Positions 1 through 58,269 of a stretch of DNA of 64,000 nucleotides are shown here, piece after piece. The notes under the pieces are model-generated. The model did no database searches. It was given only the letters and a program-made list of their open reading frames with translations, and had not been told where the DNA came from. Where the stretch lies: the NCBI GenBank assembly GCA_946122785.1, contig CAMGYJ010000005.1, positions 38,492,002-38,556,001 on the forward strand. Reading direction: 5' to 3'. Numbering within the stretch: position 1 is the first letter of the stretch; the number at the start of each line of letters is the position of its first letter. The position numbers and the translations under genes were made by a program. Origin of the DNA: Linum tenue (taxonomy: Eukaryota; Streptophyta; Magnoliopsida; Malpighiales; Linaceae).

Positions 1-1229
1 GCCATCCATGGATTGTTCTCTTAGTCAATATGGATGCCATCCAAGTTGTTTGGTGTATGGTGACCATCCAATTGGTCATCCATGGTACGTAGGTTTGATA
101 GTCCAGTGACATGATGATGTGTCGAATGTGGTTACCAAAAGCAGCAGCTGACTTGCAAATGACGCTTAGAGAGGAGTTATTGGATGTTACGTGGAGCTGA
201 TTTTTGGGAAGAGAGAGAGAAGGCAGTTAGAGGGCGAGGCACAACAAAACTTGCAGCAAGATTCTGGAGGTAGGACAACCAAATCAAATCACAAATAGTC
301 TCGTCAAAATTTATATTTTCTCTTTAGAACAGTAACCGCAGCAGTAGCACCAAGCACCCTCCAACGAGACTTCTCTGTTAGTTGTAGTCAGTAGTTGCGG
401 AGCTCTCAAGGAATCTCCATAGGAGTAGAGGTAACAGTAAGTAGATCCTTGGATGTATGCATCGAATACCCTCGTTCAAATAATGTTTGAAGAGTTGTAA
501 ACCAAGTAACATTATTTTCTGTTTTCTTAAAGTCAGGGTGCATTGATCACACGAAATTCCACCTAAAACAATGACAGACGATAGAGATTGGATGGGATTT
601 GGCGGTGGCAACAGAGAAAACGCATAACAGGGGGTGGGTTTTGCTTGCACAAATTGGAGGAAAATGACGGCTTTCGTCCGTAGACATGTTGGTTATTTTT
701 TTGGATTAGGTTAAATTTGGGTTGAGGTGAAAACTCATCTATTTAGTGTAGTTTAGAGAGTAAAATATAGTTAAATAGGAACCCAACAAATTATAACACA
801 CAAGTCGTGAGAAGATGTAGAGCCTAGGAAATTGAGTACATGGAAGGTTCATTTTTGACAAGTCGACTGGTATATCTGCGGAAGCCAATAGGAAGGAAAA
901 GATACATAAGGGGAGAGAAGCTACCACATCATAACTAGCACATAGAAATAACTTAACGAAGATGGACGGCGAGTGATAAATGATAAAACAAGAATGTAAA
1001 GTTAGTGATCATTAATGCAGTTAAAATTTTCTAGTGGCAAACATGACACAAATTAGTAATCTTAGTGATCAAACATATAAAAAAACTAAATAACTTATGC
1101 TGCAACAAATGAAAGGCTACTTTGCTTGATCATTAGAAACAAGCAAGCTGAACCGGTAATGAAAAATAGTGCATGTTTTCCCTTATGGAATGGCTTGAGT
1201 AGTGAGGATATTGAACGTGTACCCCAAAA
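1..1229. other. Intergenic DNA, no gene seen
   Basis: No convincing coding region: open frames are short and lack recognisable motifs. About 385-517 holds a dispersed repeat that recurs near 32940-33052 inside a long-TIR element (shared pieces include GCGGAGCTCTC, GAATCTCCATA and AACCAAGTAAC in the same order). The left edge may therefore be the remnant of another copy of that element. Confidence 0.6.
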
Positions 1230-1230
1230 T

Positions 1231-2430
1231 AGGACTGGAAAACGGTGCGGTGTGGTCCATATCAGACCATATATACGGTATATGGTTCAGACTGAGAGGC
1301 TAAAGTATAGACCACAGACCAGATCACAGACTATACGGTTCGGTCCAAACCACGCCTGTGAGGTCTGGTTCGCTCTGGTCTGGTCCAGATAGACCACACT
1401 CAACGAAAAATGAATAATTTGTTTAGTCAACCACACAAAAATTGAACCAATAACCAAGAAAAATAATTTTTATCTGCCTTAAAATATTAATCCTAACATG
1501 CATGAATAATTTTGATACCCTAATCTTAGTACATTACAAAGATACAAAGTAAAAGCATCCCAACTTGCACCATAACGTAATAAGTATGAACATAATTTCG
1601 TATAGAGACACGATTATCTCTATTGTCTGGTTAAATGTGGTTGTGAATGAAGGAGGGACGAGATTCACAAAACTAAGGTTGAGACTTGGGTGTCGTTGTG
1701 GGAGTTGGGAGAGTGGTCGAATGGGTTGTTAACACGTATTGACAAGTCGGTTGGGTCCACGGTTTGGTCCGGTAAACCGCGGTCTAGACCAAACCAAACC
1801 AAGAGATCAAAAGATAAAATAATACAAATCAGACCATACTTAACGGTCTACGGTTCAGAACAAACTATGCGGTATGATTTGGACCACGACTTTTCTAACG
1901 GTCTGGTCTATTTTCCCTACCATACCACAAAAAGTATTTTGCTTGTGCATTTTCTTCCGGTATGGTCTGCACCATGCAAACTATCTTGAGCAAAAAATAA
2001 ACAGTTTATTTAGTCAATCACACATAAAATTGAACTAATAATCGAGAGAAATAACGAAAACACAAAGTATGAGCAACCCAACTTGCACAATAACATCGTA
2101 AACATTGACATAATGTCATATGATGACACATTCATCTCTACTCTGTGACAAAGTGTGGTTTATGAATTGAGAAGGGGGCGAGATTTTCAAAATTAGGGTT
2201 GGGACTTGAGTTTCGTTGATGAGTTGATAGATTGATCAATTGAGCTGCTAACACTAATTGAGAAGTGTTGGAATCATGTTTTAATTTGGACTACTAAATC
2301 GCTATCTAAACAATACCAGATCAAGAAATCAATTGTTATAATAAGACCATGGACAAAACTAAAATCACTCTTCACAGCCTACGCTCTGAATCACATTTTT
2401 TCAAACGATTTTGTCTAATTTCCCATCTTA
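1231..2430. repeat. Diverged tandem repeat, period about 520-590 bp
   Basis: Blocks recur in the same order. TTTAGTCAA followed by a CACACA..AATTGAAC segment occurs at 1422 and 2009. An AACTTGCAC..ATAAC segment occurs near 1561 and 2079. GA(C/G)AAGT occurs at 1741 and 2261, and AGATCAA at 1803 and 2328. The first two units also contain short GGTCTGG/GGTCCGG/AGACCA inverted motifs (1240-1395 and 1745-1980), which the third has largely lost. The copies differ by many substitutions and indels, so this is an old duplication, perhaps of a MITE. No coding function is seen. Confidence 0.7.
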
Positions 2431-4621
2431 TATACTAGCTTTTTACCCGCCCATTGGGCGGTGCATTCGTATTGTTGTTTTATTTTTCGTTCTATTGTTT
2501 TTTATAATTTATGTATGTTAAACTACTATACATTGAATTGTTAATCTCACTTACTTGATTTTAGGTATTGTTACACACTTTTATATCTTTTGTTTATTTA
2601 TGAAAATTTGATTTTATTAAATGAGCTCTCAGTAGACTTTCTTTATTTATTTATAAGTTAGTGTCGAACCCACAATTTAGGATATAAACATAAGAGATTA
2701 TCAATGTTTTAGCATACACAATAGTAACAAAGAAGTTTAAAAAATGAAGTAAGCAAATATGTTTCAATCAATAAAAAAATAAGCAAAGGGCTTTTCATTT
2801 CTTCTCCCTTCTCGTATGTTGGTATGATAATACATACTATCGCGCTCTAAATCACACGAACATCGTGCACTATTAGTTACTTGTGCAATTTTAGAAGAAC
2901 GAGAAAACGCATTAGCATCCACATCATCAATCTTATGCTTATTCATTTAATTTATCTTTAAAATGTTCTAGCAAAACCAACCAAAAATAGAACTATTAGT
3001 TGTCACTAATTTATTAAAACAATATTTTTCAGCAAACTAAATTGCATATAAACAAAGTTTATATTTGTAGAGAGCTACATACCCCCTTAAAAAACAATGG
3101 TGTATTTTTTACCTAATAACAACATAGACGAATTGTAAAAACCGCATACTTCAATAAATCTCAACTCATTGTATCTTGTAAAATCTTCATTCATGAACAT
3201 GGTTGATGCATCAATCCAAATAGTTGTTGTCAAGAAAACGATCAGGCCAAAATCAAGTTTTAGTTAGGGATTCAATCAGGCAAAAATTCACGCTAAGGAA
3301 ACAAACAAATGTCATTGCAAACGTGTAGAAATTGAAAGAACGTCGACATAGACAACTTTTTTTATAGAATCGACATAGACAACTTAGAGACTACCACCAC
3401 CATTTTCTTTCTTCTTCGCACCTTTATAAAACCTCACATGTGTCCCCTTCTACTTATAACCTCCTGCTATGTTTTACTTACTGACCAGATCATAATCATA
3501 TAGCTAGTAGCATGTCACTCATGAACATAATAAACAATTCTAACAACTCTGCTTTCCATTTTATCATCCACAAAATTGGGATGCAATAGGCAAGTAAAAT
3601 GATCAATTATTCAACCAAAGGAGAGATACTCTAAGTCCAAGCAATAAACCATTCCAATTGTCTATTACATGTTTACATAAATGTATTCAACATAGAGAAC
3701 CATAAACAACTACCTGAAAAACAAAGAGAAATACATTCATTGATTTGAGCAGGGAAATTTACGATCCAGCCATTGTAATCTGGAAGAAATTAAGAAACAA
3801 ATGGAAAGAAGAGTTTAATATGGTTAGTCAACCACAAATAACCACATATATCTAGGAAAAAGAGACCAGTTGTCAGCTACAGATCAAGAGTGAAGAGGGA
3901 GCAATGAGCAATCATCGACTTCATTCAATTCGTCTTCACAATGATAGGATGCAATTTTTAGTCAATAGTCAAATATATGTTACAGTTGCTCAATTGTTTC
4001 CCATCTAATCATTGTCTTATGTAACTCCACCCTCGTATTCTCTTACAAAGAGTAAAAACTCAATATCCCTTACTATTTCCTTTCCTGTATCTGTTTGAAA
4101 AAAGCAGAGAAAAAAATGCTAGAAATCTCATTTTGAGCAAATAAGAAGAGAAGAGAAGTTTGTTTTTATGGGGCTTGATCCAATTTTTTCATTTTCTTAT
4201 TTTCAATATTGCGCTTTATTTTTATAGAGAGAATTTGTATGAGAAAAGGGATATGAACAAACCAAAATGTTGCATTCCGTGTTATTAACTTAATTTATGT
4301 TTTATTTATAATGATGATAATTTAAAGAGTAAACAAAAAAGTATATAAGCAAGAATTAGAACTTGTCCACTGTGGAAGGGTGAGAGCTAGCCATTCGTTG
4401 ATGTGACACTAATTTAGTTTTAAATTTCTATGATATTAAGTAATGATGGTTTATAATTTTTTGAATTTTTTATAAACTTTAAGAATTCATACAAATATTG
4501 TGACATTTCACATACATTTGAATACTCAGATTTATTATAAATAAATTTATTGTAAATACAAATTGTTTACTGTTACAAAATAGAAAATTTCTATTTGATA
4601 CTTTGATTTTGAAAAGTTTTA

Positions 4622-7489: not shown

Positions 7490-9436
7490 ATGGCGACGAA
7501 AACAGAAGGCAAAGCAATCGGCATCGACCTCGGCACCACCTACAGCTGCGTCGGAGTATGGCAGAACGACAGGGTCGAAATCATCGCCAACGACCAGGGC
7601 AACCGCACCACCCCTTCCTACGTCGCCTTCACCGACACCGAGCGCCTCATCGGCGACGCCGCCAAGAACCAGGTCGCCATGAACCCTCACAACACCGTAT
7701 TCGACGCCAAGCGCCTCATCGGCCGCAAATTCTCCGACCCCTCTGTTCAGGCCGACATGAAGCACTGGCCCTTCAAGGTCATCCCTGGCCCAGGCGACAA
7801 GCCCATGATCGTGGTCCAGCACAAGGGCGAAGAGAAGCAATTCGCCCCTGAAGAGATCTCCTCCATGGTCCTAATCAAGATGAGGGAAATCGCCGAGGCC
7901 TTTTTGGGTCAAAACATCAAAAACGCTGTCGTCACGGTTCCGGCTTACTTCAACGACTCCCAGAGGCAGGCGACGAAGGACGCCGGCTCAATCGCCGGTC
8001 TCAACGTCCTCCGAATCATCAACGAGCCCACCGCCGCCGCAATTGCTTACGGTCTCGACAAGAAAGCGTCGAGTCGCGGCGAGAAGAACGTCCTCATCTT
8101 CGATCTCGGCGGAGGAACTTTCGACGTCTCTCTGCTGACGATCGAGGAAGGGATCTTCGAGGTGAAGGCCACCGCCGGAGACACGCATCTGGGAGGCGAG
8201 GATTTCGACAACCGGCTGGTGAGTCACTTCGTGGCGGAGTTCAAGCGGAAGAACAAGAAGGACATCAGCACCAACGCCAGAGCTCTGAGGCGGCTGAGAA
8301 CCGCCTGCGAGAGGGCGAAGAGGACTCTGTCTTCCACTTCACAGACCACAATCGAAATCGATTCCCTCTACGAAGGGATCGATTTCTACTCCACCATTAC
8401 CAGAGCTAGGTTTGAAGAATTGAACATGGATTTGTTCAGGAGGTGTATGGAGCCCGTGGAGAAGTGCCTCCGCGATGCCAAGATCGACAAGGGGCAGATA
8501 GACGACGTCGTTCTGGTCGGCGGTTCGACGAGGATCCCCAAAGTCCAGCAGCTGCTTCAGGACTTCTTCAACGGGAAGGAGCTCTGCAAGAGTATCAATC
8601 CTGACGAGGCCGTAGCTTACGGAGCAGCGGTTCAGGCGGCGATTCTGACCGGAGAGGGAGACGAGAAGGTTCAGGATTTGCTTCTTCTTGATGTCACCCC
8701 TCTCAGCTTGGGTCTCGAGACCGCCGGCGGCGTGATGACGGTGTTGATCCCGAGGAACACGACGGTTCCGACGAAGAAGGAGCAGGTTTTCTCGACCTAC
8801 TCCGACAATCAGCCCGGGGTTTTGATTCAGGTGTATGAAGGGGAAAGGGCGAGAACGAAGGACAACAACTTGCTAGGGAAATTCGAGCTCTCTGGAATTC
8901 CACCGGCGCCGAGGGGAGTCCCTCAGATCAATGTTGTCTTCGACATCGACGCCAATGGGATCCTGAACGTGTCGGCGGAGGACAAGACGGCGGGGGTGAA
9001 GAACAAGATCACGATCACGAACGACAAGGGGAGGTTGAGCAAGGATGAGATCGAGAGGATGGTTCAGGAGGCAGAGAGGTACAAGGCAGAGGATGAGGAG
9101 GTGAAGAAGAAGGTGGAGGCGAAGAACTCGTTGGAGAATTACGCGTATAACATGAGGAATACGATTAAGGACGAGAAGATTGCCGGGAAGTTGGATTCGG
9201 CGGACAAGGAGAAGATCGAGAAGGCGGTGGAGGAGACGGTGCAGTGGCTTGATGGGAATCAGCTGGCGGAGGTTGAGGAGTTGGAGGACAAGCTGAAGGA
9301 GCTGGAAGCTCTCTGCAATCCGATCATTGCTAAGATGTATCAGGGTGGCGCTGGTGGTGATGTGCCGATGGGCGGCGGCGGCGGTGATGCATCGAGTGGC
9401 GGTGGTGCTGGTCCTAAGATTGAAGAAGTTGATTGA
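7490..9436 (+). CDS. HSP70: Cytosolic/nuclear heat shock protein 70, intronless
   Basis: ATP-dependent chaperone of 648 residues, the usual length for cytosolic HSP70. All three family signatures are visible: IDLGTTYS at residues 12-19, [12 protein letters not shown] around 203-214, and [15 protein letters not shown] at 340-354. The C-terminus is glycine-rich and ends in EEVD, the tetrapeptide that binds TPR co-chaperones in the cytosol. No signal or transit peptide is seen. Most constitutive plant HSC70 genes have one intron near codon 72 (after NTVFD); here the frame is uninterrupted, as in many stress-induced members or in retrocopies. The GC-rich third codon positions contrast with the AT-rich flanks. 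A TATA box sits at 7345. Large antisense open frames over this gene are composition artefacts. Confidence 0.98.
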
Positions 9437-23766: not shown

Positions 23767-24261
23767 TTTTTTTTATTGCAAATAAAAAAAATTTCATTAC
23801 GCTCTAGCTAGCTTAGCCAAATAGCCGAGCTGCCTCTCAAACTCCTCTGTACATATATTTGGGGTATCCCTGTTGCACCATGTAAATCTATAACTCTACT
23901 ATAAGCTAAAAGCTATATATAAACACTACTACTGGTTATTCGACTGGTCAAATTCTTGGTGGAGGGCAGGTTCAGTTTGCACACGAAATGAAACTTCTTC
24001 TTCCACCCTCCATACAACCTGCAACAACGTTCACGCCAAACATAGCTAATGACTGTACTCCAAATCAATCGACAAACACATATCATAGAACTCTTTTTGT
24101 TCCATCTCTGCACACACCAATGCACATAGCTATCCCAATCCCCCACAGTTGGCGGCGCATAGACTTTCAGACTTTTCCTCATAACATAGACAGAAAAAAG
24201 AGCATTCAATTATAGCAGGTGCTCTCTAGTTTCATCACCTTGTTACGAGATCGAGCCATCG

Positions 24262-24682
24262 TGACATTTCATTAATTACTGGGCTTGCGTATCTTTTCTT
24301 ATTAGTTCGTATTTGGATATTATTGGGTCTTATTTATTATTGTCTTAATTAATGTTTTCCTTGTTCAAGTTGGTTTAGGTTATTGTTAGTCGTGTTCTTA
24401 GCGGAGTAGGAGTTATATTCTAGATAGGAAAAGGTAGAGGCTTCTATGCCTATAAATATGTACTTGTTTCGTTCGTTTAATGTCATGAGAAGATTGGAAC
24501 CCAATTTATGTTTGTTGCTTTGATTATTTCTTTCGTTCAGTTTAGTAGTTTCGTAGCTATTTTGGTTGTTCTCGCCATTAAGGAGATCCTCTACTCGAGA
24601 GCATCGAGCAACGTATCCAAAAGTCCGGAGAAGTAAAGATCCAGAACGTAGAATTCCGCCCCTACGGCGCATCTACGTAACA
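24262..24682 (+). repeat. 5' LTR of the non-autonomous element
   Basis: TG...CA termini. A TATAAATA box lies at 24451-24458, giving a plausible U3/R boundary near 24480. It matches the 3' LTR except that CTCGAG is CTAGAG there and a GG is missing before the TTGTTCTC word. Confidence 0.92.
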
Positions 24683-24684
24683 GT

Positions 24685-24697
24685 TGGTATCAGAGCC
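24685..24697 (+). promoter_or_regulatory. Primer binding site (tRNA-iMet type)
   Basis: TGGTATCAGAGCC is complementary to the 3' end of plant initiator methionine tRNA and starts 2 nt after the 5' LTR. Confidence 0.9.
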
Positions 24698-24720
24698 CGG
24701 TTCTCCGGCATCGTAAAACC

Positions 24721-25863
24721 ATGATGATTGAAGGTATTCGAGCAAGAGAATTGGTCGCTACTTGGAATCAATATGTGGAGAGATTTTGCCTTGATCGTAT
24801 CGACTCTATGAGGTTGCCAGAGGAGGCGCTAACCGTAGCTCTGAAATCGTCGCATACATCATATCCGCCGCCGCCGTATACATACTCGTATGCTTCTCAA
24901 ACCCAAGAGTACGGGCATCATCACAAGCAACCTTACGAGGCGAATTGGGGACAACCACCAGGTTGGAGCTACCACTACAATGTGGAGATTTGGGCCGCAC
25001 ACGAGCTCGCCGCGTTCGGTACGGGACACCACGAGCAGCCCAACGCGAGGTCATCATCGGACAGGTCGTGGCGTGAGGAGTGCTCACCTCAGAACGTGGG
25101 AAGTTCATCACCAATCGCCGGGAACGGATCGATGCGGCAAGGTCACGAGAGTTTTCAAGTGGAAGAGGACAAGCCGCTGCAGATCATTGATATCGCCGCC
25201 ACCAAGCAGTCGCCTTCGGAGGAGACATCATTAAGCTGGGAACAACGATTGGCAGAGCTCTTGGCCAAATACGAGGTGTTGAAGCCAGTTGAATTCGATG
25301 TCATCAAACCAATCGCCTCCGATTCGCCACACGGGGAACGCCTTGCCTTCCCAAATTTCGCGGAGAGGGGAATAGAGTCACAAGCGTTGAACGACGAAGA
25401 CACCACGATGGTTGTGCGGTTCGCTTGTGGCCGCGGCGTCGTAGCGTCCCCGTCAATTCCTCCTTCATCCACCGCCAAAGAAAAGAACGAGGTATTAAAG
25501 GAGGATTGCAGTCTTGGATCGGAACAAGGTGAGCTTCCCACGGGTCAAGAGAGTCATCGAATTGGCAAGGAGGGCTTGGCGGCGAGGTTCTATCCTAGCG
25601 GAGTCACTGATTCATGTGGCATCGCAATTGGAGGGAAGAGGAAGAAGCGAGACGATGCCGTTGCCGGAACCACCATCAAGTCACTGTCGCAGACTGATTC
25701 GGTGGGGACCAGTGAAGACGGAGTCTCTGCTGCCGTCAATGAAGCATCGCCTTCCGGCGCCGCTGTCCATCGTGACATTTCATTAATTACTGGGCTTGCG
25801 TATCTTTTCTTATTAGTTCGTATTTGGATATTATTGGGTCTTATTTATTATTGTCTTAATTAA
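24721..25863 (+). CDS. Uncharacterised protein of the non-autonomous LTR element
   Basis: An intact 380-codon frame begins 23 nt after the primer site, where gag normally starts. Codons 1-350 lie in the interior and the last 30 run into the 3' LTR. The N-terminal 40 residues look helical (ARELVATWNQYVERF, MRLPEEAL). Residues 45-85 are rich in Pro, Tyr, His and Gln (SYPPPPYTYSYASQ). A WEQRLAELLAKYEVL helix lies around 173-187, and a basic GKRKKR patch near 308. There is no CCHC knuckle, no DTG protease and no polymerase motif. The frame shows no damage over 1.05 kb and is much more GC-rich than the LTRs. It could be a diverged gag, a domesticated accessory protein or a captured host coding segment; I cannot tell which. 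Confidence 0.65.
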   Translation: MMIEGIRARELVATWNQYVERFCLDRIDSMRLPEEALTVALKSSHTSYPPPPYTYSYASQTQEYGHHHKQPYEANWGQPPGWSYHYNVEIWAAHELAAFGTGHHEQPNARSSSDRSWREECSPQNVGSSSPIAGNGSMRQGHESFQVEEDKPLQIIDIAATKQSPSEETSLSWEQRLAELLAKYEVLKPVEFDVIKPIASDSPHGERLAFPNFAERGIESQALNDEDTTMVVRFACGRGVVASPSIPPSSTAKEKNEVLKEDCSLGSEQGELPTGQESHRIGKEGLAARFYPSGVTDSCGIAIGGKRKKRDDAVAGTTIKSLSQTDSVGTSEDGVSAAVNEASPSGAAVHRDISLITGLAYLFLLVRIWILLGLIYYCLN

Positions 25864-26195
25864 TGTTTTCCTTGTTCAAGTTGGTTTAGGTTATTGTTAG
25901 TCGTGTTCTTAGCGGAGTAGGAGTTATATTCTAGATAGGAAAAGGTAGAGGCTTCTATGCCTATAAATATGTACTTGTTTCGTTCGTTTAATGTCATGAG
26001 AAGATTGGAACCCAATTTATGTTTGTTGCTTTGATTATTTCTTTCGTTCAGTTTAGTAGTTTCGTAGCTATTTTGGGGTTGTTCTCGCCATTAAGGAGAT
26101 CCTCTACTAGAGAGCATCGAGCAACGTATCCAAAAGTCCGGAGAAGTAAAGATCCAGAACGTAGAATTCCGCCCCTACGGCGCATCTACGTAACA
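25773..26195 (+). repeat. 3' LTR of the non-autonomous element
   Basis: Near-identical to the 5' LTR, with the TATAAATA box at 25962. The sequence just upstream (GCGCCGCTGTCCATCG) is not a polypurine tract; the nearest purine-rich stretch is at about 25630-25652. Confidence 0.92.
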
Positions 26196-26383
26196 CACCT
26201 CCAGGGAAAAATACTCACTTACCCCAGGTTTCTTTCCCCCATGAGATAAGCTTATCTAGTGTGATAATCTTGTTGCACAAAGCTAACCAGACTAGCACAC
26301 CATGTCTAGGAATAATTTCTGAATTCCATATCAGTCTCCACCAATCCACTTCTGGAGCCTTAATCCGAATGGTATCCCAGATT

Positions 26384-46710: not shown

Positions 46711-49490
46711 TTTTTTTTATGTGAAATCAAAAATTGCATTAAGTACAGGCCACTTGCAGAGGAAAACCTGCAGCGCCTCTCAAACAGTTACAACGCAAGG
46801 AACAAAGTTACAAACCACTCCTATCTCCTATCTATAGTTTACTCAATGCTATCTAATTCTAACTGGAGGGCAGGATCCGTACAAACTCGGTAAGCAACTT
46901 CCTCATGTATCAACTTCACCAACATAGCAGGGTCTTTGATACCTCTTGTCCCATACAGCCGAGAACATCTTTCACGCCATATATGACTCACAGCAGCACT
47001 CCACAGTACTCGGCAAATACTCGCTTTAGTAGTCTTCTTCTGCCATTCCCTTGCACACCAAGCAACCGTTGCATCCCAGCCACCTACTGCTGGTGGAGAC
47101 AGATTCTTCAAACAGAGCTTCAAAACAGCACAAGAGTAAGAACAATAAACAAGTAAATGATCTTTGTTCTCAACCCCCCTGGACACAATAGACAGCATCC
47201 AGATACAGTTTTCCCCCAGGCCAGGAGTTTATCCTGAGTTACCAATCGTCCATGGATAGCAAGCCACAGAATCAATCCATGCTTAGGAATGACTTCCTTT
47301 GGCCAGACTAATCTCCACCATTGCACTTCTGGTTTTTTCTCTCTGATATCATTCCACACCCTGGACAAAGAGAATCGCTTCATTTGCTCTCCTTGCCATA
47401 GAGTGGCGTTTCCAATCCCAGAAATGAAAGGATGAGCTACCTCTCTACATTTCAGCACCCGTTTCCAAATCCATGTCCCAACAGAAACAATTGAGATATC
47501 CCATATGCTTCTACCCTTCAGCCTATACCTTGAAATCCATGCAACCCATATAGACCCTCCTAGAGTAAGGATCTCCCATAAATGCCTCAATACACACGCC
47601 TTATTCCATACTCCAAAGTTTCTAATACCAAGGCCACCCTCTTTCTTTGGGATAGTAAACTTGTCCCAAGCCATAACTGCTTTTTTACGACTACCATCCT
47701 CAACAGAATCCCATAGAAACTCGTTACACAACCTACCCACCTCCTTGATAACAAACTGAGGCCGCAGGAATATGTTGAGCCAATATTGGAGGGTACTGGA
47801 GATGACAGAGGTGATAAGTTGTATTTTCCCAGCATAGCTTAGCAGTTTGGACCTCCAACTTCTCAGCTTTTGTGTTATCTTATCCACCAACACCTTACAA
47901 TCTTGCCTAGTGAGTTTTCCTGTTATAAGTGGGACTCCTAAGTACCTCACAGGAAGTGTACCCAAAGGGAATTCAGTAAAACCAGATATAGCAAGCATTT
48001 CATCATGTGGAATACCAGCACAGAAAAGTTGACACTTGGCTGGGTTGCATCTTAAACCAGACAGCTTATAAAAACTATCCATTAACCTTCTAATGCCTGC
48101 AACCCCTCTAATTGACCCATTAGTAAACATCATCAAATCATCCGCAAAACATAAATGGGAAATCATAAGAGGTTTACAACGAGGATGGTAAGGAATCTGA
48201 TTATCCACCATAGCTTTCTTAGCCAAACAATCCAATGCTTCCATTGCTATTGTAAACAGGTAGGGGGATAATGGATCCCCCTGCCTTAATCCTTTACCAG
48301 CCTTTATATTACCACACAACCCTCCATTAACTGCAACTCTAATAGTAGGTATTGTAACACAAGCAAAGATCAATGTAATAAATCTCTCTGGAAACCCCAT
48401 TGCCTTCATTATACTAAACAGAAACTTCCAGTTTACTGAATCAAATGCCTTCGTTATATCTATTTTCACCACACATCTAGGAGTTATATTCTTTCTATGA
48501 TAATTTCTAACCAATTCTGACACCAGTAGAATATTATCACTTATAGACCTCCCCTTGATAAAAGCAGATTGAGATCTACTTATCACACTGGGAAGAACTA
48601 GGGCAAGTCTATTAGCTAACAGTTTTGAAATACCCTTATACAAGGTATTACAACAAGCTATGGGCCTATAATCCTTCATCTTTTCAGAGCTGGGAATTTT
48701 AGCTACCAGAGTAAAAATGGTACTATTCACAGTAGATGGCATAAAACCAGTAGAAAAGAAAGATAGAACTACCTCTTCAACTTCAGTGCCAATAAGAGAC
48801 CAATGAGCTTTATAAAATTCTGCAGGGAATCCATCTGGCCCTGGGGCTTTATCCCTGGCAAGTGAAAGAAAGGTTTGCTTTATCTCTGCTCTTGTAATAC
48901 CTCTCAACAACTCATTCTGCTCATCCTCAGAAAGTCTGTGCTGAATTAAACCACGATAGTAAGACTCATCTTTGACCTCCACATTAGAATCCTCAGCTCC
49001 AATCAGTTGCTCAAACTCCACTGCAATCTTACCAATACTCTGCACATCAGTTTTAATTTCACCTCTGTCATTCTGCATAGGAGTAATCTGCTGTCTCTGA
49101 GCTTTGATTTTTACAGTTTTATGAAAATAAGCAGTGTTCGAGTCCCCCTCCTATATAGCTTGAGTTCTAGCCTTCTGCCTGTAAAACTGCTCTTCTGCCC
49201 TTCTCAACTCAAGGTACTCCATACACACCTGTTTTTCCTTGGCCACTGACTCTGCATTAGGATTTAGAAGAACTTCATTCTGAGCAGCCTCCAGTTCCAC
49301 TGCTGCACCCTTCACTCTGGCAGAAATATCTGAATAAACAGTTCTGTTTAATTGTTTCAGGGCCTGCCTAACACAATGGAGTTTACCATAGAAAACATTC
49401 GAAGGGTACCCCTCCACCTTCCTTTGCCAAGCTTGCTCGACTAGATGCATATAATTTGGATGACCCTGCCAAAAAGTGAAGTATTTATAG
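46711..49490 (-). pseudogene. L1-type LINE, 5'-truncated, ORF2 nearly intact
   Basis: Minus-strand ORF2 starts mid-protein at about 49490 (FWQGHPNY..), so the endonuclease is missing. The linker ends at an in-frame TAG (49151-49153) before EGDSNTAYFHKT. The reverse-transcriptase domain then runs open to about 47120, with GPDGFPAEFYKAHW, ITKAFDSVNWKF, GLRQGDPLSPYLF and the catalytic FADD (48137-48148). A frameshift near 47120-47190 separates the zf-RVT C-terminus (WRERCSRLYG, ending at 46839). The 3' UTR ends in an A-rich tail (T8 at 46711-46718 on the plus strand). No target duplication was recognised. With one stop and one frameshift it is fairly young but dead. Confidence 0.9.
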
Positions 49491-50233: not shown

Positions 50234-50490
50234 TAGGGCTGCTAATAAACCAAGTTGCTCAGGAGCCGCTTGACGTTTGATTCGAGAAAAGCTCGTTTAA
50301 TTCTCGAAAACCTCTCTATTCGTTTATTAACGAGCCGAGCTTGAACTAAGTCTTGTTTAGCTCGTGAGTCAGCTCGACTAGGTGGCTTGTTGAGCTCAAC
50401 TTGTGAACTATCTCGTATTCTCATTTGACCTGATGAGATGTCTCAATATTGTGACAGGAGAGCCAACTCGACCACCGATCTATATGTTAT
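50234..50490. mobile_element. Left part of an hAT-like MITE, target of the Copia insertion
   Basis: Starts TAGGGCTGCTAATAAACCAA and contains many AGCTCG/CGAGCT words typical of another hAT-like MITE family. The Copia element inserted at 50490. Similar CGAGC/GCTCG text resumes at about 58100-58250, but a clear right terminus was not found there. Confidence 0.5.
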
Positions 50491-51047
50491 TGTTGGAAAT
50501 GTGTATGAATAGCTTTGAAAGCTATAGAGTCTCAAGAGGAAAAACTACCACATTGGTAGTTTTACTTGGTGAAATGTGTATAAAGATAGGAGCCTCTCTC
50601 CTAAGGGCATGCCCCTTGGGGTGACCCACTTTTGTGGGAGAGGGAGGACCTAACGGACCACCACACACACGTGAGACTATATACATATTTTTGGAGAAAT
50701 TCCGAACGTAATTAATTATTAATCGGTTATTCGATTAAAAAGGAATATTCGAAGGATAATCCCGCAGGATTTATCTTAACCGGTTATTCGATTAAATAGC
50801 CGCCTCCCCAGCCCCTCTAAACACACCACAACGAGCATAAACACAATAGAGAGAGTGTTTAGAGAGCTCCAGTGTTCGCACAAAACCGCGAGTACACAGA
50901 GGAGCTGTTCTATCCCGGAGACAACCGGTTGATAGTCTGTCGTGCGCATCGAGGGCAGTGCCGCGAACGTCTTAAAGAGAGCGACCTAGTCCGCGAATCA
51001 GCTCCAGATTCGGTAACCTCGTTCTTGTTGTTGTTCCGTTCCTAACA
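50491..51047 (+). repeat. 5' LTR of the Copia element, TATA region deleted
   Basis: 557 bp, TGTTGGAAATG...CCTAACA. Compared with the 3' LTR it lacks roughly 95 bp between TTATCTTAACCG and TAGCCGCCTCCCC, including the CTATAAATAG box, so its promoter is probably weak or dead. Confidence 0.93.
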
Positions 51048-51068
51048 ATTTTAAGACGTTCGGCTGCT

Positions 51069-51732
51069 ATGTCGACTGAACAGAACAACATGGCCGGATC
51101 TGGTGTTGTCGATATCAATCGACCATTTCGCTTCGTTGGAGTCAACTTCCGTCGCAGGAGACAAAAGATGGAGTTCTACCTGACGACCAAGAAGTTGGCA
51201 CACTGCCTCACCAGCATGCCTGTCGAGCTGCCGGAAGAAGCGACCGATGAGGAGAGGGCTACTTCTGCTAAGGAAAGGGAGCATGACTTCATATGCAAGA
51301 ACTACATCCTCAACGGCCTGGCAGACGATCTCCACGACTACTATGCGGACAGCAAGAACACCGCAATGATGATATGGGATGCGCTCCAAAAGAAGTACGA
51401 CACGGAGGAGGCTGGAGCTAAGAAGTATGCTGTCAGCCGCTACCTGCGCTACCAGATGGTGGATGACAAGTCTGTCGAAGTTCAGTCCAACGAACTTCAG
51501 AAAATAGCTCATGAGATCGTCTCTGAAGGTATGCCTCTGGACGATCAATTTCAAGTTGCTTGCATGGAAAGATTTTAAGAATATGCTTAGACATAAAACC
51601 AAAGAATTTTCACTGGAAAGTTTGATTACTCGCCTAAGGATTGAGGAAGAGTCCCGCAAGCAGGATATGAAAGAAGAGGTGATGGTCGTCACTGCTAAAC
51701 GACCCACCCCTAGAGCTCTTAAACCTAACTAG
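51069..51732 (+). pseudogene. Copia gag, frameshifted
   Basis: The ATG lies 22 nt after the LTR. The UBN2-type gag reads clearly to about 51560 (KMEFYLTTKKLAHCL, NYILNGLADDL, YDTEEAGAKKYAV). A small deletion and frameshift then occur and the frame continues ([27 protein letters not shown]) to a stop near 51732. The knuckle-bearing tail is in the next frame (see pol). Confidence 0.9.
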
Positions 51733-51804
51733 AAAGGATTTAAGAGTAAGAACCAGCAGGTCCGCCCCCACCATAATGGTGCCTCTTGAGGTAACCAAAG
51801 GGTC

Positions 51805-54800
51805 ATGGCCCAAACCTCTAAGAATGACCCACCGTTTATCTGCTATAACTGCGGAAAACCGGGTCATATGGCAAAAAAGTGCAAGAACAAGCAAAACCCC
51901 GCCGCTGCAGCCAGGGTTAACTTGACAGAAGAGGATTTGATAGCCATGATCACAGATATGATCGCTGAAGTTAACCTCACCGGTGACTCAGAAGGATGGT
52001 GGTTGGATACAGGTGCATCGAAGCATGTATGCAACAATCGTGCTATGTTTAAAACATACACAGAAGCACCTGCTGACAAGAAAGTGTTGTTGGGGACTAC
52101 TCACACCACTATGGTTGCTGGTTCTGGTGAAGTGGAGCTGAAATTCACCTCTGGGAAGAAGATGGTGCTCAAGGATGTGTTGCACACTCCAGAGATAAGG
52201 AAGAATCTTGTTTCGGGATATCTTCTTAATAAGGCTGGGTTTAATCAATCTATTGGGGCAGACTTGTATACCCTTACTAAGAATGAGAGTTTTGTGGGAA
52301 AGGGATATGCATGTAATGGGATGTTCAAGTTGAATGTCAAAATTAATAAGATGAATTCTTCGGTTTACATAGTGTGTGATTTGAATGTTTGGCATGCTCG
52401 TATTTGTCATGTGAACACACGAATTGTGAAGAATTTAAGCAAGCTAGGACATATCCCTAAACTCTCAATGAATGAATTTGATAAATGTGATTTCTGTAGC
52501 CAAGCTAAAATAACGAAAACGCCCCATAAATCTGTGAGTAGAGAATCAGAACCCTTAGATCTGATTCATTCTGATATTTGTGAACTAGATGATACGTTAA
52601 CTAGGTCTGGCAAGAAATACTTTATCACTTTCATAGATGATTGCTCTGATTATTGCTTTGTTTATTTGATGAAAAACAAAAGTGAAGCCCTTGACATGTT
52701 CAAGATATTTGTGGTTGAATTTGAAAATCAGTGCAATCGAAAGATTAAAAGACTTAGGAGTGATAGAGGATCAGAGTATGACTCTAATCCCTTCAAGGAA
52801 TTCTATAGCTCACATGGTATCATTCATGAAACCATGACACCATATTCACCATAAATGAATGGTAAAGCTGAGTGAAAAAATAGGACGTTTACAGAATTAG
52901 TTGTGGCTATTATGCTCAATTCAGGAGCTTCTTCTTCTTGTGGGGTGATATTTTGTTGACGGTTTGCTATGTGCTAAATCGTCTTCCAAAAACAAATAGA
53001 AAAGAATCACCCTATGAGATCTTGAAGAATAAGCCACCTAATCTGTCCTATTTAAGAACGTGGGGCTGTTTGACCTACGTAAGAATTTCGGATCCTAAGA
53101 GGATTAAGTTGGCTAGTCGAGCATATGAATGTATCTTCGTTGGCTATGCGGCCAATAGTAAGGCATATAGATTCTATGATTTGAATGCTCGTACTATAAT
53201 AGAATCCATTGATGTTGATTTCTTTGAGACACGATTTCCATTTAAAACGAGAAATAGTGGGGGTAATGTACTACCCGCTATTAGAGATAACGGAACTAGT
53301 GGGGGTGTTGGATCTGAGGATGAACTCAGAAGAAGTAAAAGAGCTAGAATCTCTAAAGATTTTGGTGATGATTTTACTACAGTATACACCTCGAGGATCC
53401 ACAAAGTTTGCAGGAAGCATTAACTTCCATAGATGCAGACTTTTGGAATGAGGCCGTTATAGATGAAATGGAATCGTTAGAGGCTAATAAGACTTGGCAT
53501 CTAACAGACTTACCTCCTGGCTGCAAAGTCTTAGGTAATAAATGGGTTCTAAAAACGAAACGGAAACTTGATGGTGCAATCGAAAGGTTCCGAGCTCGCC
53601 TAGTAGTTAAGGGCTACAGGCAGAGAGAGAATATAGATTTCTTCGATACCTATTCACCAGTATCTAGAATAACATCCATTCGTGACATGATTGCTCTTGC
53701 TGTCTTGAACAATCTCGCGGTACACCAAATGGATGTTAAGACTGCTTTTTTGAATGGTGATCTAGATGAAGAAATCTATATGGAACAACCAGAAGGGTTT
53801 GTTATCCCCGAACATGCCTCGAAAGTCTGTAAGTTAGACAAATCATTATATGGTTTGAAACAGGCTCCAAAACAGTGGCATGAGAAGTTTGACACTCTCG
53901 TTCTCTCACATGACTTTAAGGTGAATGAAAGTGACAAGTGTATTTACTGCAAGTCAGAGAATAACACTTGTACTATCATATGTTTGTATGTAGATGACAT
54001 GTTGATATTTGGTACAAATATTCACATGGTCAATGAAGCGAAAGCCATGTTAAAAGAGAGCTTTGAGGTGAAAGATCTGGGAGAAGCAAGTTTATGCTTG
54101 GAATCCAGATAACTAGAACAGCAAATGGTTATTCTCTAGATCAATCTAGCTACATAGAGAAGATCTTGAAGAAATATAACTATTTCGACTGTAAACCTGC
54201 GTGTACTCCGTATGATGCTAGTGTAAAGCTATATAAGAACACTGGAGACAGTGTAAGACAATCAGAATATGCTAGCATCATTGGCAGTCTCCGTTATTCT
54301 GCGGATTACACTCGACCAGACATTGCATATGTCATGGGATTGCTTGACAGGTTTAACAGCTGTCCTAGTAGAGAGCATTGGAATTAGGGCTGGTAAACGG
54401 TACCGCGGTTAACGGTTTAACCGGTAACCGGAGTTACCGGTTAAACCGTTAACCGTATTTATCGGTAATCGGACGTGAAAATGGAAGAAACGGTATACCG
54501 ACATATCTTCGGTAATTTACCATCGGCCATTCGGTAATCCGATACCGAATATGAGAAGCCAGGCCAAAGGCGTCGGCCCCCAACACCCCAACCCAGCAGG
54601 CCTAATTACTAAATACTAATTACTCTTTTGCATCACTCTCTCCTCTCCTCTCGACTCTCCCCTGCCTGCCGCACAACGAATCACGCAGCCCAATCCCTCC
54701 TCCGCCACTCGAATCCAAACGCGGCCGGCCGCCTTGTCGAAACCAGCATAATTTTTTTCCTCTTCTTCGCCGGCGAACGCTCGAGCTATAGGACACAACC

Positions 54801-56755
54801 CAACAGCCCAGTACGACCCGTCTGATTTTTCGTCCTTTTCATCGGGCTCTGTTTCCGTCAACCCCTGCCAGCCCCGTTTGCGTCGACCCCCGTCGCCGCC
54901 GGAGCTTAATTGCTCGACCCCAGCCCAGCAGTTCGTACTCTCCGTCGATTGATTTGCAGGTAATGAAGTTTGATTTGTTAATTGCTGCACTGTTTGTGTG
55001 TCTGAGTTAATTATTATAGGCTTATAACCGAGCAGAGGAGAGTGTTGGATACTTTCTTCAAACATGACAGATGTTTCAACTTCGAGTTTCCAATTGAAGA
55101 CACGACGACGTTCCACTGCAGGATTCCTTTTCATATCACGCCACCGTTTTCTCTTCAAGCTTCACCTCCTCAAAACGACGATGCGGAAACCTTATCTCTT
55201 CAATGGGTCGTCCCTTTCCTTCATCGCTTCCAGACATCCTCATTCAAGCTCATCTGAGAAATGCTCCCAAAAAGCATATCAACTTTCTCGATGCTCCAAG
55301 AACAGCTAGCGCCTTGAGCTTCTCAAAAGTCATCCTACCACAATGGATCTATCGGCGCATCTTATTTAAACACTCATTCCTGTCTGGAGACTTCACCGTT
55401 TAACAACCAGTCAAGCGCATGCAAGGATTGTAGAAGGGTTCCTCAATCGATCCATTTTTCAGTCTTCTCATCTACAAGTGAAGGGGTCTTCTAAGTAGAT
55501 AGAAGTGTGAAGTCGGGTGTTTTGGTTCAAGTGTTCTTGGGATTCCTTTATTTCCCATGTTTTCTTTCTTTTCATCCTTCATCCTTGCTCTGATTCCTTA
55601 GAAGATAGCTTTCTGTAATTCCCATCAAAAGCAGTCATAATGACTGCAGATTAGCTTTTCCTTTTTAATCTACAAGTATCCTCTTTCCATTTCTCATCTG
55701 TTGATCCAATTCAAAACCCTATATGGCTATATCAATCCTCTAATTCTCATAGAGCAGGCGTGTGAGTGTTGCAGGCTTGCAACCAAGCAGAGGAGTAAAG
55801 TCATGTGTTGTTATATATTTATATTTTGTTTTGCTTAATCGATTAACCTCACAACATCAAAATTTATTTATTAATCTGTTCTATTGTGGTTTGCTTTTGG
55901 ATTTTGCAGCTATGCTGGCTGTGTATGTTATTGCCGAGAGCAAAGGAGATGTTTTGTTCTTAAATAGGTAGTAGCTATTAGCTAGCAAGTCCAGCAGGCA
56001 GAACGGGTATCCGGCTAATAACCGATACCGCATGAATTCGGTATTCGGTTTACCGAGTTAAGTTCGATATCGGCAAACGGTGGAGTTGTGATGATGTCCG
56101 GTATACCGGTAACCGGTCAAACGGTAACCGGTTTAACCGATTACCGACCGTTTACCAGCCCTAATTGGAATGCTATAGAGAGGGCCATGAGATACCTCAA
56201 GAGAACAGCAAACCTTGATATACACTATCAAATGTTTCCTGTTGTACTAAAAGGGTATAGTGATGCGGATTGGAATACCCTATCAGATGACTCCAAGGCA
56301 ACCAGCGGATATGTTTTTAACATCGCTGGTGGAGCTGTGTCTTGGAAGTCAAAGAAACAACAATCCTAGATCAATCAACTATGGAATCAGAGATGATAGC
56401 ACTAGCAACGGCTAGTGAAGAAGCAAGTTGGTTGAGAGGATTGTTGTCAGAGATTACCCTATGGGAAAGGCCGGTCCCTCCGGTATTGATACATTGTGAT
56501 AGTACCGCAGCTATCGCCAAAGTTGAGAACTGGTTCTATAACGGAAAGAAACGACAGATTCGTCGTAAGCACAATACTGTAAGAGAACTCCTAACGATAG
56601 GAGCAGTGAGGGTGGATCATATAAGATCCGAACAGAATCTAGCTGATCCATTGACGAAAGGATTACCTAGAGAGAAAGTCCAGAATACCGCCAAGGGTAT
56701 GGGTCTTATGCCTACCGAACCACGGACTACAAGTGATGGTAACCCGACCCAATAG
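51805..56755 (+). pseudogene. Copia pol relic: knuckle, protease, integrase, RT, RNase H
   Basis: 51805-52854 holds the CCHC knuckle (CYNCGKPGHMAKKC), the protease active site WWLDTGAS, the GAG-pre-integrase HxxxC region, and the integrase core (HSDIC, then SDRGSEYDS). Stops interrupt at 52852 and about 52873. 52938-53423 is the integrase C-terminus (SYLRTWGCLTYV). A frameshift leads to RT at 53408-54112 (HQMDVKTAFLNGDL, SLYGLKQAPKQWHEKF, and the YVDDM catalytic motif). Another leads to 54094-54384. After the hAT insert, RNase H resumes at 56172 and, after a further shift, ends at 56755 (ESEMIALATASEEASWL, DPLTKGLP). Non-functional. Confidence 0.92.
54385..56163. mobile_element. hAT-like element nested in Copia pol
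   Basis: 1779 bp with perfect 16-bp inverted ends TAGGGCTGGTAAACGG/CCGTTTACCAGCCCTA and a perfect 8-bp duplication ATTGGAAT (54377-54384 and 56164-56171). The subterminal 150 bp at each side is full of CGGTTAACCG/CGGTATACCG palindromes. The interior is gene-like, with CT-rich leader sequence (54630-54960) and two splice-acceptor-like sites, each followed by a near-identical 22-bp block (AACC(G/A)AGCAGAGGAG core, 55019-55040 and 55774-55795). No transposase domain was recognised, so it is a deletion derivative or carries foreign sequence. Confidence 0.9.
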
Positions 56756-57235
56756 ACTGGAGATCCCAAGAAATGGGTTCAATGGGTAATAACAAGTCAT
56801 GAGTAGTATGCGAAAAGTTCATGCATAGTGAAGCATGAATCCCAAAGCAATGTAGGTTGAGTTAATAACTCTTAATGAGATCTATACCCTATGTGGGGTG
56901 GAGTACTTTACTTTGGGGGTACTCCTGATAGACTCACCTGTGTGAATGTGGGAGTGGGGCCGCTCCCTATGGAACTTTGGAGGCACAAATTTGCTAGAGC
57001 GTTCACTAAACCAGGATAACGTGCATGGCCATAAACGCACGGGCTAAGAAGAGAACACAACTCAATGAAAAGATCCGGTGTGCTACACTGTCTGAGATAG
57101 GGTTCAAGACTACGAGTCACCCTTATGAAATCGGAAGTGTAACCACTACGCTAAAGTTCAAATCTTCGCGATACCTTAGCTTATGCCCGATCTTATGGAA
57201 CTGTTGATGCTCATAGATAGTTTCAAAACTATTCA

Positions 57236-57245
57236 AGTGGGGGAT
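57236..57245 (+). promoter_or_regulatory. Polypurine tract of the Copia element
   Basis: AGTGGGGGAT directly precedes the 3' LTR, the usual plus-strand primer of plant Copia elements. Confidence 0.8.
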
Positions 57246-57947
57246 TTTTGGAAATGTGTATGAATAGCTTTGAAAGCTATAGAGTCTCAAGAGGAAAAAC
57301 TACCACATTGGTAGTTTTACTTGGTGAAATGTGTATAAAGATAGGAGCCTCTCTCCTAAGGGCATGCCCCTTGGGGTGACCCACTTTTGTGGGAGAGGGA
57401 GGACCTACCGGTCGGTCGGTCGGTCGGTTGGTTGGTTGGTTGGATGGATCACTTGAGACTATATACATATTCTTTGGAGAAATTCCGAACGAAATTAATT
57501 ATCTAATAATTAATTATTAATCGGTTATTCTGAGGAATATTCTAAGAATAATCGATTAAAAAGGAATATTCGAAGGATAATCCCGCAGGATTTATCTTAA
57601 CCGACGGTTTTAATTAAGGAAGTAATTATCTTCCTTAATTAATCCGACTTATTCCCCAAGAAAGAGGGTATATTCCTAGGGGTTCGGCTCCTATAAATAG
57701 CCGCCTCCCCAGCCCCTCTAAACACACCACAACGAGCATAAACACAATAGAGAGAGTGTTCAGAGAGCTCCGGTTTTCGCACAAAACCGCGAGTACACAG
57801 AGGAGCTGTTTTATCCTGGAGACGACCGGTTGATAGTCTGTCGTGCGCATCGAGGGCAGTGCCACAACATCTTAAAGAGAGCGACCTAGTCCGCGACTCA
57901 GCTCCAGATTCGGTAACCTCGTTCTTGTTGTTGTTCCGTTCCTAACA
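57246..57947 (+). repeat. 3' LTR of the Copia element
   Basis: 702 bp. It keeps a TATA box (CTATAAATAG, about 57691-57700) in the segment missing from the 5' LTR. A GGTC/GGTT tetranucleotide microsatellite (about 57410-57442) has expanded where the 5' LTR has a CACACAC run. The first bases are TTTTTGG instead of TGTTGG, a point change at the terminus. Confidence 0.93.
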
Positions 57948-58269
57948 GTTATGGGTTGGGCTGTTGATTACTCATATGTTTAATAAATTGTATATCTCAC
58001 CTCATATGTTTTTTTAAAACTTTGAGTATACGAGCAAGATGACATGAGATAAGTTAATCACATGTTTTATATATTACATATATATATGTAAGGGTATTTA
58101 ATTCATAAACTCACTTAGAATTGAGATTGAGCCGAACTCTCGATTCGACTAAGCTCAACTCATTGATATATTAGCCAAGTTCAAACTCAACTCGCTTATT
58201 AATAAACCAAACCTAAACAAGGCAAAACTCTGCTCGACTCTGCTCATTAAATATCAAGGTCAAATCAAC

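Follow-up and report, generated by a model that had tools for sequence, protein, structure and literature searches.

A short element in the genome of Linum tenue raises the question of what an LTR (long terminal repeat) retroelement encodes when its only long open reading frame (ORF) matches no retroelement domain. From the letters of a 64,000-nucleotide stretch (the window), a first-pass annotation had described the locus as a young, non-autonomous LTR element with a single ORF and had suggested that it may still be mobile. The first part of this description is supported, and no gag, protease or polymerase match was found. We consider it probable that the element, young and truncated, belongs to a non-autonomous Ty3/gypsy-related family of L. 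tenue, whose members carry a mosaic, domain-less ORF.

Boundaries, Age, and Insertion Site of the Element

The locus is a young LTR insertion, and the whole element spans 24241–26195 (1,955 bp; Table 1). Its start had been placed at 24262, where no target-site duplication (TSD) is found. Among the 113 starts tested between 24150 and 24262, the CACCT TSD and inverted termini matching at 7/7 nucleotides (TGTTACG/CGTAACA) coincide at 24241 only, and the other 112 give neither a 5-bp TSD nor an inverted terminal match of at least 4 nt; the 5′ LTR is therefore 442 bp long. The near identity of the LTRs was borne out: a single substitution and an indel of 2 bp separate the two copies of the direct repeat at 24256–24682 and 25767–26195 (427/429 bp). 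The same applies to the reported primer site, the 12-nt TGGTATCAGAGC at 24685, which occurs exactly only once within the window and which we take to be the site for tRNA-iMet. Thus, two LTRs with inverted ends, a TSD, and a primer site adjoining the 5′ LTR are present, as in LTR retrotransposons. At the substitution rates used for LTR dating, 1.3e-8 and 7e-9, the one LTR substitution corresponds to an insertion age of roughly 90–170 kyr, with wide error.

The copy was inserted into decayed LINE zf-RVT sequence. The piece right of the element alone matches Pfam zf-RVT at profile positions 11–56 (E = 7.6e-9), and when the flanks are joined with one CACCT, the match, which lies in a minus-strand LINE-type frame, grows to positions 11–75 (E = 1.7e-10). 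The piece left of the element alone has no zf-RVT match in Pfam; another family appears there at E 0.025, below the cut-off.

Other genes and elements were noted elsewhere in the window. A Copia element with Pol_BBD, rve, and RVT_2 matches and diverged terminal repeats occupies 50489–57950, and it is interrupted at approximately 54385–56163 by an insert that has the inverted ends TAGGGCTGGTAAACGGT and is flanked by a duplication of 8 bp, ATTGGAAT, as a hAT-type element would be. On the minus strand, an open frame of 652 codons at 47123–49078 is of the LINE reverse-transcriptase type and matches RVT_1 and zf-RVT. An HSP70 gene on the plus strand (7490–9433) has an uninterrupted frame of 648 codons, the product of which is identical at 647/648 residues to a Linum tenue protein and at 646/648 to one of L. 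trigynum, with a 7-residue gap in each alignment. Searches for RNA families and for tRNAs found none in the window.

Table 1. Annotated features of the element, in window coordinates.
Feature	Position	Strand	Basis
Target-site duplication, left copy, CACCT	24236..24240	.	Terminal-repeat and TSD comparison
5′ LTR, full length, 442 bp, TGTTACG...CGTAACA	24241..24682	+	Ends common to 10 other two-LTR copies (423–445 bp)
TATA-like motif TATAAATA inside LTR, putative promoter element	24451..24458	+	Motif match only
Family-conserved leader and first 33 ORF codons, 137 nt	24683..24819	+	87–91% to other copies; 128 nt in L018
Primer-binding site TGGTATCAGAGC, 12 nt	24685..24696	+	Exact match
Interior part of ORF, 348 codons, no domain match	24721..25764	+	Translation and profile searches
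Central block, 696 nt	24877..25572	+	No DNA match at E <= 1e-4 in 12 other interiors
Block 91% identical to L029 interior 654–837	25573..25756	+	Pairwise comparison
ORF read-through into 3′ LTR, 32 codons and stop, deletion product	25765..25863	+	ORF translation
Deletion junction, interior joined to position 16 of 3′ LTR	25766..25767	.	Comparison with L029
3′ LTR without first 15 nt	25767..26195	+	Repeat comparison with 5′ LTR
Target-site duplication, right copy, CACCT	26196..26200	.	Terminal-repeat and TSD comparison

A Deletion at the 3′ End

The 3′ LTR lacks 15 nt, no purine tract adjoins it, and the ORF stops inside it, and therefore the terms "undamaged" and "intact" used in the first-pass annotation are wrong. 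No purine run of 9 nt or longer is found next to the 3′ LTR; the nearest interior one (25630–25647), considered as a stand-in polypurine tract, was rejected since it ends 119 nt upstream of the LTR. In all of the other two-LTR copies (10/10; see below), GAGGGA or AAGGGA stands directly 5′ of the 3′ LTR, and the lack of the tract usual in LTR retrotransposons is owing to the deletion. The extent of the loss is seen by comparison with a related copy, L029, which matches interior positions 891–1074 of the window copy at 91% and then continues for 1,023 nt: about 1.0 kb of interior including the ORF C-terminus, the polypurine tract, and 15 nt of U3 are missing. The junction has a 2-nt CC microhomology, provided that the lost sequence resembled that of L029.

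In standard LTR replication, priming takes place at the polypurine tract, and a single U3 is the source of the U3 at either end. From this and from the complete 5′ U3, it follows that the parent RNA had a full U3 and a polypurine tract. The loss, directly visible in the window copy, thus most likely arose in that copy, either after insertion or in second-strand synthesis. As the tract, the first 15 nt of U3 at the 3′ end, and some 1 kb of the interior are gone, continued mobility is not supported; the copy would be expected to give no insertable progeny unless by recombination, and further movement of this truncated family member is unlikely.

The Window ORF

As had been noted, a single frame runs through the interior of about 1.09 kb: between the LTRs (1,084 bp), one frame is open throughout, with 360 codons and no stops. 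The ORF itself begins at the gag position, 38 nt past the 5′ LTR, and covers 24721–25863, or 380 codons, of which 348 are interior and 32 belong to the 3′ LTR with its stop. Over the ORF span, the other five frames have 9–15 stops, and in Markov simulations (2,000 for each order), at least 348 consecutive open codons were obtained in any frame in 0% (order 1) and 0.2% (order 2). On the simulations and the stop counts, a chance ORF was rejected. Furthermore, a period-3 composition is found in the ORF frame (p = 1.3e-6).

The absence of a recognisable motif holds for Pfam, PHROGs, NCBIfam, PDB, and a motif scan. The product has no Pfam match at the cut-off (one at E 0.14), none in PHROGs or NCBIfam, and no zinc-knuckle, protease, or YxDD motif. 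Pfam matches at E 0.025–0.14, seen for the window ORF and three other copies, lie below the cut-off and were taken as chance, as was one PDB match at E 0.84. A profile match to an ordinary gag had been named beforehand as the result that would speak against an unfamiliar protein, and none was found. The search for related proteins proposed at the same time also gave no relative among the candidates scored: against a collection of 5.8 billion proteins, nothing at E <= 10 appeared among 7,230 candidates of 209–665 aa, nor, in a second search, among 7,993 candidates of about 501–1594 aa. These searches reach relatives that share exact 5-residue words, the second one scoring the candidates that share most words; the collection includes Linum tenue proteins, and annotation pipelines may omit transposon proteins. 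A structure prediction, likewise proposed, was run with AlphaFold from the single sequence and was uninformative (pLDDT 32.5). For viral contigs, seven pattern matches were obtained, none of which was confirmed, and a second search gave none; in prokaryote genomes, one 29-nt LTR pattern had no match.

Copies and Ends of the Family

The window LTR was searched against the Linum tenue genome, as had been suggested along with a count of copies. With 40 of 395 candidates scored, at least 44 places were found, two of them being the window's own, and ten other copies have two full LTRs (L009–L017 and L029). In addition to eight loci (L001–L008), 29 stretches were fetched, corresponding to 28 places since L025 and L037 are the same. 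Eleven copies drawn from the scored candidates, L009–L018 and L029, were used for comparison. The ten two-LTR copies all have matching 5-bp TSDs (10/10) and TGTTACG/CGTAACA ends (10/10), and their LTR pairs differ by 0, 0, 0, 1, 1, 1, 2, 2, 3, and 13 substitutions. The eleventh, L018, is in a tandem arrangement without a clean TSD pair; positions 1–4523 of its stretch contain LTRs and interiors of the family in tandem, and the LTR pieces at 3315–3574 and 3779–4038 point the opposite way. Thirteen lone LTRs have matching flanks (L019–L024, L026–L028, L030, L031, L034, and L036). At two further places, ORFs that look Copia-like by eye are present: in L025/L037, they lie further upstream of a 3′ LTR that follows the last 480 nt of a family interior, and in L035, they follow a family 5′ end.

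The ends of the interiors are common to the family. The first 137 nt are shared by the window and all of the comparison copies (11/11; 128 nt in L018) at 87–91%, and the last 82-odd nt by 10/11, the tail of L016 having diverged without a match. Interior lengths of the comparison copies range from 1,485 to 3,144 nt. The best explanation of these features is that, in a complete-looking member, LTRs each about 445 bp long enclose a primer site, a leader of short length, an ORF of about 460–670 codons, and a polypurine tract.

Mosaic Middles

The window ORF belongs to a family with a mosaic middle, which the first-pass annotation had not foreseen. While the first 33 or so codons are kept, the ORF middles differ between most copies. 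Two pairs are closely related for much of their length, L010 and L012 with 95% identity from one end of the interior to the other, and L014 and L018 with 99% over 1,414 nt. The remaining copies are patchworks, some more so than others. In the case of L029, the best matches are, in order, L012 (97%), L015 (92%), L017 (89%), nothing, the window (91%), nothing, L013 (73%), nothing, L012 (77%), and L009 (91%). The share of an interior that is matched by others is 100% in L010, L012, and L018, 79% in L014, 76% in L011, and 57% in L029, and it falls to 44% in L009, 33% in L013, 27% in L017, 24% in L016, and 20% in L015. At the protein level, the ORF products of L009 and L010 have 36% in common over 437 aa. 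Within the family ORF of L015 (1055–1954), there is a complete zf-RVT domain of LINE type (E 5.3e-23), a sign of foreign pieces entering family interiors.

In the window copy, other interiors cover 35% of the interior, namely positions 1–194 and 891–1074. Residues 51–290 of its ORF match the other copies with a best E of 0.19, no better than 20 shuffles (0.034–2.7), and it is thus from both ends of what remains of the interior that family membership is judged.

A Probable Link to Ty3/gypsy

A relative with a gag gene was found at L032 and L033. Its LTR is 85% like that of the window, and it has the last 40 interior nt of the family, at 85–92% to ten comparison copies. An ORF of 703 aa is present in both, and that of L032 matches Retrotrans_gag (E = 1.3e-15) and Ty3_capsid (E 2.3e-8). 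Apart from these 40 nt, the interior of L032 has no match to the other interiors, and its gag therefore does not share the 33-aa N-terminus of the family. The two LTR copies of L032 are only partly alike, 87% over 170 nt, and L032 may therefore be a chimera. L032 and L033, on two contigs, are 99.6% identical over 9.3 kb and are probably one insertion duplicated by a recent segmental duplication.

The last 40 nt of the family may correspond to the C-terminal end of a gypsy pol gene. No pol or other retroelement enzyme was found in the family copies scanned, and no autonomous partner was found among the copies examined. No Gag domain was detected with Pfam in the ORFs of nine other copies (L009, L010, L012–L016, L018, and L029), of which L014 and L015 were scanned in part and from which L011 and L017 were left out. 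The LTR, tail, and gag of L032 probably tie the family to Ty3/gypsy and would make trans-mobilisation by a gypsy partner the natural mechanism.

Frame Keeping and Selection

The ORF is open to a TGA located 61 nt before the 3′ LTR in 6/11 comparison copies, with lengths to this shared stop of 461 (L009), 588 (L010), 579 (L012), 668 (L013), 517 (L018), and 587 aa (L029), and the six end with FFYIDPG. The ORF of L011 (474 aa) has an earlier stop and a different C-terminus, and that of L016 (577 aa) meets no stop within the interior. Together with the window ORF, these eight copies give nine open ORFs of 348–668 codons, selected for being open, and over the same spans each other frame has 9–42 stops, the range for the six copies with the shared stop being 10–42. 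The frame is broken in the remaining three comparison copies (L014, L015, and L017). Indels between L010 and L012 (21 and 6 nt) and in the first 1,028 nt between L018 and L011 (3 nt) are all multiples of 3.

For L011/L018, dN/dS is 0.56 over the first 330 codons, with p = 0.035, uncorrected and one of four tests. The other values are 0.80 for L010/L012 (p = 0.56), 1.55 where L018 and L014 have their 3′ part in common (p = 0.74 with 12 changes), and, in the block shared by the window copy and L029, 5.5 (p = 0.075), with one silent and 15 replacing changes in 61 codons. This block (window 25573–25756, L029 interior 654–837), with 15/16 differences replacing, is unlike the other pairs; it gives a hint of diversification or relaxed constraint, 61 codons being too few to judge. 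Between L010 and L012, only 2.7 nonsense changes are expected under neutrality, and the probability of none is 0.07. Disrupted frames with dN/dS near 1 had been named in advance as evidence against a functional ORF, and this was half seen, as 3/11 frames are broken and one of four stretches is below 1 at p < 0.05; against it stand the stop distance from the LTR shared by 6/11 frames and the three indels in multiples of 3. We conclude that the frame is kept, with selection on the amino-acid sequence unproven.

Motifs with tryptophan and basic residues, such as NWKYRKKR, recur in 7/8 other ORFs scanned and are absent from the truncated window ORF; the motif was chosen by eye after reading the sequences, with no chance control. 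Because of these motifs, our best guess is that the family product is a putative RNA-binding accessory protein of the element. Tentatively, and with considerable doubt, the ORF may encode a real protein with fixed ends and a middle reshuffled during reverse transcription, selected for being translated and not for a fixed sequence.

Origin of the Mosaic ORF

How could one family acquire so many unlike middles in one frame? Most likely, a gypsy partner would supply the Gag and Pol that package and reverse-transcribe RNA made from the 5′ LTR, and the ORF middles would be shuffled through template switching when RNAs of different members are packaged together. Such an event would have placed the window copy at its insertion site in the LINE zf-RVT sequence. 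The loss of the 3′ interior, the polypurine tract, and the first 15 nt of the 3′ LTR, which the sequence shows, would have come afterwards or during second-strand synthesis. One paper is reportedly devoted to template switching among LTR elements of the Triticeae. The middles may also have come from outside, if the family captures host transcripts or transposons by template switching and the ORF is a passenger. There are documented cases in which TRIM and LTR elements made such captures (PMC4717578), and both the low coverage of several interiors by other copies (20–44% in L009, L013, and L015–L017, and in the window) and the complete LINE zf-RVT stretch inside L015 are in line with it. Still, the interiors of L010, L012, and L018 are fully matched within the family and those of L014, L011, and L029 for more than half, L009 and L010 retain their protein similarity, and the window ORF has no match at E <= 10 among the candidates even though L. 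tenue proteins are in the collection. Moreover, unlike middles share the frame, the stop position (6/11), and recurring motifs, which counts against capture since captured fragments are unlikely to be in frame so often. We regard this origin of the middles as unlikely.

Two other explanations do without a family protein of its own. The gag position of the ORF, 38 nt past the LTR, the gypsy gag of the related L032, and the internal deletion at the 3′ end of the window copy would fit a deletion derivative of an autonomous gypsy element, in which the ORF is a fast-evolving N-terminal part of gag. This is quite improbable: six copies have a complete ORF of differing size (461–668 aa) with its own stop and no capsid domain, and the L032 gag lacks the family N-terminus. 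Still less credible, to a degree that we would be surprised to see it hold, is a chance open frame in GC-rich non-coding filler of a LARD or TRIM without a protein. The three broken frames and the single stretch with dN/dS below 1 at p < 0.05 among four would agree with it; it is opposed by nine open frames of 348–668 codons beside other frames with 9–42 stops each, by the stop position common to 6/11, and by the period-3 composition of the window ORF. The shuffled family ORF of a gypsy-dependent element remains the preferred reading.

Relation to Known Elements

Several classes of elements come close to this family. The terminal-repeat retrotransposon with GAG domain (TR-GAG) is similar in its two LTRs, TSD, single ORF in the gag position, and presumed autonomous partner (PMC6022998; PMC8704663). 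It differs in the Gag domain, which neither the window ORF nor the ORFs of the nine other copies scanned possess; the description does apply to L032, the relative with a similar LTR. Like TRIMs and LARDs, the family is non-autonomous and without enzyme domains. By the Inpactor rule, elements with no domain are TRIMs below 2,000 bases and otherwise LARDs (PMC6022998), so that the 1,955-bp window copy would be classed among the TRIMs and the ten related copies with two LTRs, each of more than 2,000 bases, among the LARDs. TRIMs are described in another source as shorter than 1,000 bp and without coding capacity (PMC4717578), unlike the window copy with its 1,955 bp and interior frame of 348 codons. 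Nor does the copy have the large non-coding interior of a LARD, as its 1,084 nt are open throughout, and 6/11 comparison copies differ from both classes in an ORF of 461–668 codons with a common stop position.

The additional ORFs (aORFs) of some plant LTR elements likewise have no known function and are kept in many copies of a family. These aORFs accompany gag-pol and mostly lie between pol and the 3′ LTR (PMC7264820; PMC11963269), whereas no gene other than the ORF was seen in the present family, in which copies exchange parts of the ORF middle. Recent LTR elements whose interiors could not be identified are also numerous in flax, and in 32 of these the two LTRs are identical; section 13 of that survey describes neither an ORF family nor mosaic interiors (PMC3544724). 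Among the titles and abstract openings covered, no non-autonomous LTR family of Linum with a mosaic ORF was found.

Implications

Taken by itself, the window copy is a broken insertion of an ordinary kind. Sorting of non-autonomous LTR elements usually goes by their missing parts, and annotation by domains and length would split this family into TRIM and LARD bins; here, a long ORF is kept in 6/11 copies. If confirmed, the family would be a natural system for studying how parasitic retroelements keep a protein, and it would allow one to ask whether the protein helps a gypsy partner to package the element and at what rate new coding sequence is built when RNAs that are packaged together recombine.
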